From assembly GCA_947500845.1 (NCBI GenBank), contig CANMTP010000010.1, forward strand, positions 62,001 through 126,000: 64,000 nucleotides of DNA, in the 5' to 3' direction. This DNA comes from an uncultured Aquimarina sp. (GTDB lineage: Bacteria; Bacteroidota; Bacteroidia; Flavobacteriales; Flavobacteriaceae). Below the pieces are notes generated by a model. The model saw only the letters and a program-made list of their open reading frames with translations, searched no databases and was not told the DNA's origin. Numbering within the stretch: position 1 is the stretch's first letter; every line of letters begins with the position of its first letter. Below are positions 31,222 through 33,479 of this stretch, one piece after another. The position numbers were made by a program, and so were the translations under genes.

Positions 31222-31286
31222 GTGATTATAAAAGTTTGACTCTAGCATTTACTTCCTATTATTATGGTTATTCTTTCTGAAAAAAT

Positions 31287-31294
31287 TATTTTTG
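31287..31294 (+). promoter_or_regulatory. Promoter -7 element TATTTTTG of purK
   Basis: Exact TAnnTTTG match inside the upstream extension of the purK reading frame. It argues that translation starts at ATG 31312 and not at 31264. Confidence 0.55.
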
Positions 31295-31311
31295 TCTTCA
31301 TTAAGGTAAAC

Positions 31312-32484
31312 ATGAATCTCCCGGTAATGGAAAATTTTTTCTCGTCAAATTTTAAATTAGGAATTTTAGGAGGTGGTCAATTAGGTAAAATGATGTTATA
31401 TGATACCAGAAAGTATGACATTCAAACTTGTGTTCTTGATCCTAGTCCTGATGCACCATGTAAAATAGCCTGTGATCATTTTCAACAAGGCAGTTTAATG
31501 GATTATGAAACCGTTTATAATTTTGGGAAAAAGGTAGATGTACTCACTTTCGAAATTGAAACCGTTAATACTAAAGCTCTTGCGAAACTAGAAAGAGAAG
31601 GTAAAAAAGTATATCCGAGTTCAAAAACATTGGATATTATTCAAAACAAAGGGAGGCAAAAACTCTTCTATGAAGAAAAGAATATTCCAACAGCAAAATT
31701 TAGACGATTTTCGAATAAAGCTCATCTTACCGAAGGAATAACTGATAATCGTGTTAAACTTCCTTTTGTATGGAAAAGTACTCAAGGGGGATATGATGGC
31801 AAAGGCGTTTCTGTCATAAAGTCCGGAGCAGATGTTGCAAAACTACCGGATGTAGAGTGTATTGCTGAAGAAATGATTAATTTCAAAAATGAATTAGCGG
31901 TAATTGTTGTGCGCAGTGTAAGTGGTGAAATCAAAACGTATCCTGTAGTAGAGATGGAGTTTCACCCCGAAGCAAATCAAGTAGAATATGTGATATGCCC
32001 TGCAAGAATAAGTGATGCTATCACCTTAAAAGCTATTAAAGTTGCAGAAAAAGTGTCCAAAGCGTTCGAACATGTTGGTGTATTGGCCGTAGAAATGTTT
32101 CAAACACAGAATGATGAAATTTTGGTTAATGAAGTCGCTCCGAGACCACATAACAGTGGTCATTATAGTATAGAAGCGAGTTATACTAATCAATTTGAGC
32201 AGCATATTAGAGCAATATTAGACTTACCTTTGGGAGCTACCCAGAGTAAAGTAGGCGGAATTATGGTAAATTTGGTGGGTGCTGAAGGTCATGTGGGAGA
32301 TGTAGTCTACAAAAACATTGAAAAGATCATGAAAATGCCTGGTGTAACCCCCCATATTTATGGCAAGAAGCAAACACGACCATTTAGAAAGATGGGCCAT
32401 GTAACTATTGTGCATGAAAATATAGATGAAGCCAGAAAAATTGCCGAAAAGGTAAAAAACACAATAAAAGTAGTAAGTAAATAA
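31312..32484 (+). CDS. purK: N5-carboxyaminoimidazole ribonucleotide synthase PurK
   Basis: 390 residues from ATG 31312 (a further ATG at 31327 is also possible). ATP-grasp enzyme: KLGILGGGQLGKMM (about 14-27), WKSTQGGYDGKGVSV (nucleotide loop), CIAEEMINFKNELAVIV, and VNEVAPRPHNSGHYSIEA with metal ligands. It converts AIR, ATP and bicarbonate to N5-CAIR in purine synthesis. The reading frame is open upstream to 31264, but that segment contains the promoter. purE follows after 47 bases. Confidence 0.95.
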   Translation: MNLPVMENFFSSNFKLGILGGGQLGKMMLYDTRKYDIQTCVLDPSPDAPCKIACDHFQQGSLMDYETVYNFGKKVDVLTFEIETVNTKALAKLEREGKKVYPSSKTLDIIQNKGRQKLFYEEKNIPTAKFRRFSNKAHLTEGITDNRVKLPFVWKSTQGGYDGKGVSVIKSGADVAKLPDVECIAEEMINFKNELAVIVVRSVSGEIKTYPVVEMEFHPEANQVEYVICPARISDAITLKAIKVAEKVSKAFEHVGVLAVEMFQTQNDEILVNEVAPRPHNSGHYSIEASYTNQFEQHIRAILDLPLGATQSKVGGIMVNLVGAEGHVGDVVYKNIEKIMKMPGVTPHIYGKKQTRPFRKMGHVTIVHENIDEARKIAEKVKNTIKVVSK

Positions 32485-32531: not shown

Positions 32532-33017
32532 ATGAGCAAGGTTGGAATAATAATGGGTAGTACTAGCGATATGCCTGTAATGGAAAAGGCTATCGAAGTA
32601 TTACAAGGGTTTGATATTGAAGTTGAAGTTGATATCGTATCTGCACATCGTACTCCCGAAAAATTGTTTGATTATGCTAAAAATGCTCATACACGAGGAA
32701 TCAATGTTATAATAGCAGGAGCTGGAGGTGCCGCTCACCTACCAGGAATGGTAGCATCTTTAACTCCTTTACCAGTAATAGGTGTTCCTGTTAAATCAAG
32801 AAATTCTATTGATGGTTGGGACTCTGTACTATCTATTCTACAGATGCCTGGTGGAGTTCCTGTGGCGACTGTCGCACTAGATGGAGCTTTAAATGCTGGT
32901 ATATTAGCTGCACAGATTGTTGGGGCTAATGACTCCTGTACTCTTGATAAAATATTGATGTATAAAGAAGGGCTCAAACAAAAAGTAATCGAGGGCGCAA
33001 AAAAGATTAATCAATAA
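32532..33017 (+). CDS. purE: N5-carboxyaminoimidazole ribonucleotide mutase PurE
   Basis: 161 residues, class I PurE. The phosphate loop [15 protein letters not shown] opens the protein, followed by [13 protein letters not shown] (catalytic His), [24 protein letters not shown], and [19 protein letters not shown]. It rearranges N5-CAIR to CAIR, following PurK. No other purine gene follows; 25 bases downstream lies the terminator that serves the minus-strand RNA candidate and may also end this operon. Confidence 0.97.
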
Positions 33018-33033
33018 CTCAGATACTATATTA

Positions 33034-33162
33034 AAAACAAAAAAGAGTCACCTTTCGGTGACTCTTTAAATATCAGGTCTTACAGAAGAATATAACAATA
33101 TTTATTAACCAACTTAAATATATTACACAAAAAATTCATTGTAAGACCATACTCTTAAAACC
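33034..33162 (-). ncRNA. Candidate structured small RNA A (6S-like architecture)
   Basis: A minus-strand transcript of about 129 nt is predicted between a strong promoter (TTG, 19 bases, TACCTTTG at 33168-33197) and a perfect terminator (11-bp stem 33042-33052/33057-33067, GAAA loop, then TTTGTTTTT). No coding potential seen. A 14-nt leader is followed by a perfect 9-bp helix GGTCTTACA/TGTAAGACC (minus-strand 33148-33140 with 33084-33076). That helix closes a large asymmetric internal loop and an AU-rich inner stem. The long helix with a bulged centre recalls 6S RNA, but I cannot confirm that. RNA B lies upstream in the same direction. Confidence 0.6.
33042..33067 (-). terminator. Strong terminator of RNA A, also facing purE
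   Basis: Perfect 11-bp inverted repeat AAAGAGTCACC with a four-base loop. On the minus strand it is followed by TTTGTTTTT; on the plus strand by only TAAATAT, so the minus direction is the better terminator. Confidence 0.85.
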
Positions 33163-33167
33163 TGTAA

Positions 33168-33197
33168 CAAAGGTAAAACCTTACTTTAATTACACAA
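33168..33197 (-). promoter_or_regulatory. Promoter of RNA A: TTG - 19 bases - TACCTTTG
   Basis: On the plus strand CAAAGGTA (33168-33175) and CAA (33195-33197). Read on the minus strand this is a -33 TTG and an exact -7 TAnnTTTG at ideal Bacteroidota spacing, with no open reading frame behind it. Confidence 0.65.
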
Positions 33198-33342
33198 TAA
33201 AAGTAACGAATATTTATTAACAATTTTCGATAAAATGCGCTTTTTTTCGACAAACCGCATTCTTGTTGAGTTTCAAGAGTTTTTTTTTATAGAAAATACC
33301 TGCACTAACCGACTTATTAACTAAATTTTAAAGGTTTTTAAC

Positions 33343-33474
33343 AACAAAAAGAGCTGCATTAATTGCAGCCCTTTCCATATATTTGGCCTTTGCTTCGAAA
33401 ATATAGTGTTATCACTCATACCCCAAACAAGAATAATATTTATATTTTCTGCATTAGGCCTTTTACTAATAAAC
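33343..33474 (-). ncRNA. Candidate structured small RNA B, tandem to RNA A
   Basis: A minus-strand transcript of about 132 nt is predicted from TACATTTG (33480-33487) to a terminator (11-bp stem 33348-33374, then TTTGTTG). Three co-linear helices are present: AGGCC/GGCCT (33456-33460 with 33385-33389), TGC/GCA (33451-33453 with 33391-33393), and a perfect 9-bp GAAAATATA/TATATTTTC (33397-33405 with 33441-33449). They enclose a 35-nt apical region. Leader, closing helix, inner AU helix, spacer and terminator follow the same order as in RNA A. A 74-codon reading frame overlaps, but the terminator lies inside it, which argues against coding. Confidence 0.55.
33348..33374 (-). terminator. Terminator of RNA B
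   Basis: On the minus strand AAAGGGCTGCA pairs with TGCAGCTCTTT (one G-U pair) around a five-base loop, followed by TTTGTTGTT. On the plus strand no T-run follows, so it acts on the minus strand. Confidence 0.75.
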
Positions 33475-33479
33475 CGTTT

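Follow-up and report, generated by a model that had tools for sequence, protein, structure and literature searches.

In enterobacteria, OmrA/OmrB, McaS and other small RNAs (sRNAs) repress curli through the csgD mRNA, together with Hfq. To our knowledge, Bacteroidota are generally reported to lack Hfq. The usual landmarks are missing in this phylum, and few sRNAs of Flavobacteriaceae have known targets. From Flavobacterium psychrophilum, PMC9723704 reports 85 new RNAs, including Rfp18 with predicted protease and adhesin targets; deletion of rfp18 lowers the mRNAs of Fpp1 and of another metalloprotease. The same paper cites the Flavo-1 motif from Weinberg 2010 and gives TAnnTTTG as the consensus of Bacteroidota sigma-A promoters. 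In a literature search with subscription papers mostly outside its coverage, we found no paper on the RNA beside purE that is described here, or on an sRNA directed against curlins in Flavobacteriaceae.

The window is the whole 64,000-nucleotide stretch of Aquimarina DNA that was analysed. In it, the gap between purE and the gene of an M3-family peptidase holds an RNA element, encoded on the minus strand. We take the neighbouring genes to be purK, purE and an M3 peptidase gene from their likeness to known genes and from the earlier naming of them. The features are as follows.

31264-32484, plus strand: purK (presumed)
32532-33017, plus strand: purE (presumed)
from 33612, after purE: M3-family peptidase gene (presumed)
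33195..33197, minus strand: TTG of the -33 element, separated from TACCTTTG by 19 bases
33168..33175, minus strand: -7 promoter element TACCTTTG, of the Bacteroidota sigma-A type TAnnTTTG
33163, minus strand: start of the near-invariant sequence, which begins with AGGTTTTAAGAGTA
33038..33163, minus strand: predicted sRNA transcript, with both ends placed from sequence only
33140..33148, minus strand: outer clamp helix, 5' strand, 9 bp GGTCTTACA, pairs with TGTAAGACC
33092..33128, minus strand: inner AU-rich hairpin, of which the 5' arm and the loop are antisense to the start regions of putative targets
33105..33114, minus strand: 10-nt hairpin loop AGTTGGTTAA, the probable seed
33076..33084, minus strand: outer clamp helix, 3' strand, 9 bp TGTAAGACC, pairs with GGTCTTACA
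33042..33067, minus strand: intrinsic terminator hairpin AAAGAGTCACC GAAA GGTGACTCTTT
33044-33038, minus strand: terminator T-run, after the terminator hairpin

The original prediction had proposed an independent, structured RNA gene of about 129 nt on this strand. Its parts are where it had put them: the promoter (TTG at 33197-33195, TACCTTTG at 33175-33168), the terminator (hairpin 33067-33042, T-run 33044-33038) and the 9-bp long-range helix (33076-33084 with 33140-33148). Together with the helix compensation described below, the promoter and terminator bear out an independent gene, with the length corrected to about 126 nt. Of the 30 Aquimarina loci compared, 27 have the promoter octamer TACCTTTG before the RNA and 29 have the leader AGGTTTTAAGAG; locus L035 has neither. 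By eye, a 19-codon ORF can be read on the RNA strand; it is not kept, and a T-run within it differs in length among relatives. The element thus carries its own promoter and intrinsic terminator without a conserved ORF, as a base-pairing sRNA would, and we infer that it is transcribed as a minus-strand RNA gene. Also by eye, an imperfect inverted repeat, (C/T)AAAGTAAGGTTTTACCTTTG, overlaps the -7 element on the minus strand (33168-33190 of the window) and recurs in most of the 30 loci; it may be an operator of the sRNA promoter.

Folding of 33164-33030 gives a minimum free energy of -36.2 kcal/mol (z = -4.7), which none of 200 shuffles equals. An alignment of 21 sequences was then scored over 35 pairs and compared with 500 shuffles. 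Bases are paired in 97.0% of cells versus 94.3% in the shuffles, and both sides have changed in 11 of the 35 pairs versus a shuffle mean of 4.1; no shuffle reaches either 97.0% or 11. The count of further pair types is equalled by 6 of the 500. In the alignment across relatives that had been called for, the 9-bp outer helix does show compensatory change: it is paired in 98.4% of cells, and four of its nine pairs have changed on both sides. Compensatory changes are found in 6 of the 10 pairs of the terminator helix as well. Within Aquimarina, none of the 14 pairs of the inner hairpin has changed on both sides, its sequence being almost invariant. That the outer helix and the terminator compensate while the inner hairpin stays fixed suggests that the sequence of the hairpin is held by an outside partner. 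The gene, its structure within Aquimarina and its conservation are shown by computation.

The same-genus comparison covers 30 loci. The exact core occurs in 29 of them (30 copies) and a variant core in L034; purE and the peptidase gene are both present in 28, the peptidase gene alone in L033 and L035. Elsewhere, the 22-base core was found in 56 named stretches, 50 of them from Aquimarina; a match in Desulfosporosinus has neither leader nor terminator and was taken as chance. A search of 52 Aquimarina genomes with the antisense 23-mer described below gives 47 matches of RNA-gene form, which are exact in 44 genomes (twice in G024) and carry one mismatch in G071 and three in G008. Features of the RNA were examined in the 30 loci and in a further 29 (L060-L088, which include many of the same genes), with G057, G060 and G062 left out. 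Among these 29, the exact core followed by a T-run is found in 27, with the leader in 25 of those; the other two are not RNA genes. In L025, from G024, two complete copies of the RNA and one partly masked copy lie between purE and the peptidase gene.

The partner of the fixed hairpin was sought with the antisense 23-mer of the core, CYAACTTAAATATATTACACAAA, allowing up to three mismatches and using the backward sequence as control. In the own genome (4.7 Mb), the 23-mer has two matches, the RNA gene itself and a site at C20:25725, and the control has none. The C20:25725 site immediately precedes the ATG of a 53-aa peptide with a GG-type leader, MKKIINLTHVKRLSKEQQQEITGA... Over the 52 Aquimarina genomes there are 79 matches, 32 of which are not RNA genes, versus nine matches of the control. 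At 20 of the 32, an ATG opening an ORF of at least 50 aa stands at or within a few bases of the end of the site; these ORFs comprise 13 GG-leader peptides, four curlin-repeat proteins (three in G071, one in G008) and three others, which begin like signal-peptide or lipoprotein genes. The curlin repeat (PF07012) was confirmed in one protein each of G071, the own genome and G322. All 32 sites were checked in both orientations: in the antisense orientation, 15 of the 20 ORFs start at one same distance, whereas in the opposite orientation any such ORF is found at five sites, at scattered distances. The remaining 12 matches have no start codon in place; at one of these (L116 near 1026, G016:C9:28525), the antisense site precedes a remnant that resembles a GG peptide and has lost its start codon. 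As in base-pairing sRNAs, then, a conserved putative seed is complementary to the initiation regions of unlinked genes. The complementarity at start codons is a computed result, from which we infer duplex formation in the cell.

The wider gene sets were collected by protein profile, with the curlin profile matching 42 and the GG-peptide profile 40 of the 52 Aquimarina genomes. Most seeds of both profiles were genes that had been detected by their start regions. Genes with a start region matching the 23-mer were therefore left out of the set counts, which leaves 28 of the 30 curlins given as loci and, for GG peptides, 69 out of 81 distinct start regions, from 28 of 30 loci. The 28 curlins pair with the core at a mean of -16.0 kcal/mol versus -7.8 with the reversed core, and the 69 GG peptides at -15.7 versus -7.6. 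The 43 control ORFs, few and unannotated, have a mean of -8.8 and a minimum of -15.2 kcal/mol. That minimum is reached or passed by 19 of the 28 curlins, and by 36 of the 69 GG peptides with the core versus none with the reversed core. For all 30 curlins p = 5e-13, a value that overstates independence, as the genes are related to one another. The energy of the own curlin start region is reached by none of 200 dinucleotide shuffles, and over the 30 curlins the number ranges from 0 to 10 of 200.

It should also be noted that the pairing of the orthologous curlins of Aquimarina, the own genome's included, is modest (-13.5 to -20.5 kcal/mol, n = 28, start regions not independent of one another). 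Nine of the 28 pair less strongly than the best control ORF does, and many of the 28 do about as well with the core of the sister genus g27 as with the Aquimarina core. The own genome has a second curlin, whose pairing is weak (-12.3 kcal/mol). Among GG peptides, 33 of the 81 start regions lie above -15.2 kcal/mol, many carry insertions or deletions within the site, and those of G071 and G008 pair poorly. The one-base core change of G071 leaves the energy of curlin pairing unaltered (G-U versus A-U).

Covariance model R1, run on 249 Flavobacteriaceae genomes, finds a relative in genus g27, in the same place after purE, with E about 1.5e-8 in two genomes. Its core, GATTAATATATTTAGAATGGTTAA, differs from that of Aquimarina. 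Searching the 12 g27 genomes with the antisense of their own core yields 17 matches and none in the control. Eleven are RNA genes. Three are sites within one base of the ATGs of three curlin genes in G322, genes that the profile finds as well, and two lie in the 5'UTR of a lipoprotein of about 495 aa in G323 and G324; the sixth site outside an RNA gene is near no ATG. The curlins of G330 and G329, also of g27, show no clear antisense site. Since curlins were found in 3 of the 12 g27 genomes and the core in 11, curlins are not the only target. Between Aquimarina and g27, with the curlins of one g27 genome as the case in point, RNA and target have changed together: the target sites follow the changed core of the sister genus. 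Exchanging the cores gives energies of -24.2 to -32.9 for eight Aquimarina sites with the Aquimarina core versus -9.0 to -19.7 with the g27 core, and of -21.7 to -37.6 for seven g27 and g51 sites with the g27 core versus -8.8 to -19.5 with the Aquimarina core. These sites were chosen by likeness to the cores, so that the energies describe how the sites differ and are not a separate test; the weight lies on where the sites fall.

A wide core search of 397 Flavobacteriaceae genomes returned 24 matches versus 18 for the control, a count so high that a match alone means little there. The 24 comprise 13 RNA genes, two sites before the lipoprotein and nine assigned to neither, one of which (L321) stops at the ATG of an ORF of 59 aa that resembles a lipoprotein. 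Eight loci in g27, g51, g131, g164, g209 and g255 have the element in the same orientation, flanked by purE and the peptidase gene, fold alike and carry the terminator. The family beside purE and the M3 peptidase gene is hence found in Aquimarina and six other genera of Flavobacteriaceae. Tested as simple stems, the outer helices of seven Aquimarina sequences give p from 0.000 to 0.030, and those of ten sequences of other genera p from 0.047 to 0.94, mostly not significant singly; for the other genera we therefore claim only fold and synteny. The loop TGGTTAA is common to all genera partly by construction, as the search pattern contains it. R1 is not sensitive, having missed G185, G218 and G263, which the wide core search shows to carry the RNA. 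We attribute to chance its hits in genomes from other families of the order (E no better than 6.3e-5) and in 12 additional Flavobacteriaceae genomes (E between 6.9e-5 and 6.8e-4); L255, the one among all these that was inspected, is a terminator.

Sites are also found before genes of the same lipoprotein family in G105 (g51) and G330 (g27). The members of about 490 aa in g27 and g51 (L281, L282, L327 and L335, with L282 assigned by eye) are 38-43% identical. They have no Pfam hit, an N-terminal Mfa1-like match being weak and far below the cut-off, and no clear relative among solved structures.

Taken together, our results point to a trans-acting antisense sRNA of about 126 nt that probably blocks translation of mRNAs for curli-type amyloids, GG-leader peptides and some lipoproteins. 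We hold this with good confidence, slightly reduced because the profile seeds are not independent of the start regions and because of the high control count of the wide search. The sigma-A-type promoter would start the RNA at about 33163 and the intrinsic terminator would end it at about 33038. The outer helix would clamp the molecule and present the AU-rich hairpin with its loop AGUUGGUUAA. This loop, as the likely seed, may pair first, after which the 5' arm GUGUAAUAUAUUUA would zip onto the target, so that together they pair with the 5'UTR up to the start codon (UUAACCAACUUAAAUAUAUUACAC..AUG). A duplex covering the start codon would block translation initiation, and it is from this register that the predicted sign of regulation, repression, is taken. 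The putative targets are genes of exported proteins, namely curli-type amyloid subunits and small, bacteriocin-like GG-leader peptides, and in related genera possibly the lipoprotein of about 490 aa.

Other readings of the locus have to be weighed against this one. The original prediction had likened the helix, internal loop and inner stem to 6S RNA, which mimics an open promoter and binds RNA polymerase, and in size, terminal helix and internal loops the two are alike at first sight. The purine gene next door fits as well, since 6S genes lie near purine genes in other phyla. The covariance search against 6S families that it had called for decides otherwise: the 6S-Flavo model (RF01685) scores 111.3 bits on another contig of the same genome (G000:C20:46873-46979, L001), and the locus beside purE is absent from the five RF01685 matches in that genome up to E = 10. 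The 12 weak Rfam matches of 32800-33400 include no 6S family, and neither the window nor any of the ten relative loci tested gives a match to an Rfam family at its gathering score. One of the weak matches, MicX (27.5 bits, E = 0.00043, cut-off 75), aligns mainly to the plus-strand terminator hairpin on the purE side; we discounted it as driven by a hairpin with flanking T/A runs. Furthermore, the likeness in shape does not hold: 6S RNA has an open, single-stranded bubble between two helices, and the fold predicted here has in its centre a closed hairpin whose loop measures 10 nt. A clamp helix, a closed hairpin and a core antisense to mRNA start sites indicate an mRNA-pairing sRNA, and we regard a 6S RNA or a 6S paralogue as exceedingly improbable.

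The remaining alternatives concern what the shared sequence does. The core could be a DNA operator common to the sRNA gene and the exported-protein genes, with complementarity as a by-product; the sites do lie upstream of functionally related genes, and by eye a separate inverted repeat, an imperfect one, can be made out in the promoter region of the RNA. An operator would not account for start codons that stand in the antisense orientation at 20 of 32 sites, 15 at a fixed distance, against five scattered ones the other way round; this register is translational rather than promoter-like, and the core lies within a conserved hairpin. We therefore give this reading very little credence. Scarcely better are the prospects of a consensus of AT-rich translation initiation in the genus, which any AT-rich antisense would match. 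Start regions of Bacteroidota are, as far as we know, A-rich and without a Shine-Dalgarno sequence, and TAACTTAAAT...ACACAATG recurs in many GG start regions, in some of which the site is interrupted by insertions or deletions. This consensus is opposed by the weak pairing of cores of the same length when reversed (-7.5/-8.1 kcal/mol) or complemented (-3.4/-4.1 kcal/mol), the 43 other ORFs, which do not match, the near uniqueness of the antisense 23-mer in the own genome, and the sites that track the changed g27 core. An RNA that pairs with these mRNAs and activates or stabilises them is unlikely too, if less so than either of these. In its favour, the Rfp18 mutant has less mRNA of Fpp1 and another metalloprotease (PMC9723704), and the lipoprotein sites end about 15-35 nt before the ATG. 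Against it, the duplexes with curlin and GG-peptide mRNAs extend as far as the start codon, which is the register of repression.

Beyond the repressing antisense sRNA itself, we lean slightly towards a broader picture, in which the RNA belongs to an sRNA family not described before and fixed next to purE in seven or more genera of Flavobacteriaceae. By hybridising with start regions that lack a Shine-Dalgarno sequence, this family would be the master switch of surface amyloids and exported peptides. The hairpin core and the regulon would co-evolve, and in Aquimarina the RNA would have beside it a sister with a different loop, AGGGGTATG. This sister, RNA B, lies at 33344-33476 of the window on the minus strand and has the same build as the RNA beside purE: a TAnATTTG promoter-like element, the leader GGTTTATTAGT, a GGTC/GACC clamp, a hairpin loop read by eye as AGGGGTATG, and a terminator. 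It is present in 27 of the 30 Aquimarina loci (29 copies, three of them in tandem in L030) and is a weak hit of R1 at 24.6 bits. Sites CATACCCC before ORFs in the loci examined gave nothing convincing as targets of RNA B. A further RNA-like element of this build, with clamp GGCTTCA/TGAAGCC, core GTGTAAATATTTAAGTTGGTTA and a terminator-like hairpin, is seen in L043 around 1555 (G007) and in L044 around 1052 (G005).

Comparing sequences has thus been enough to propose a regulon and a seed, and to find target sites that keep step with the altered core of another genus. With these in hand, post-transcriptional control of functional amyloids and bacteriocin-like peptides becomes directly testable in a cultivable marine genus.

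By its description in PMC9723704, Rfp18 is, like the RNA beside purE, a genus-conserved sRNA of Flavobacteriaceae that is predicted to pair with mRNAs of secreted proteins, which for Rfp18 include an adhesin; the predicted targets of Rfp18 are mostly metalloproteases, and its pairing is by a third stem-loop. Flavo-1 is also a conserved RNA motif of Flavobacteriaceae, but since no Rfam family was found at its cut-off in the window and ten relative loci, neither was Flavo-1. The 6S-Flavo RNA (RF01685) is of similar size and from the same family of organisms, but it is a separate gene in the same genome, and its model does not match the RNA beside purE. OmrA/OmrB and McaS would share with the RNA beside purE the control of a curli-type amyloid by base pairing near a start codon; they act on the regulator csgD, whereas here the mRNAs of the amyloid subunits themselves appear to be paired.
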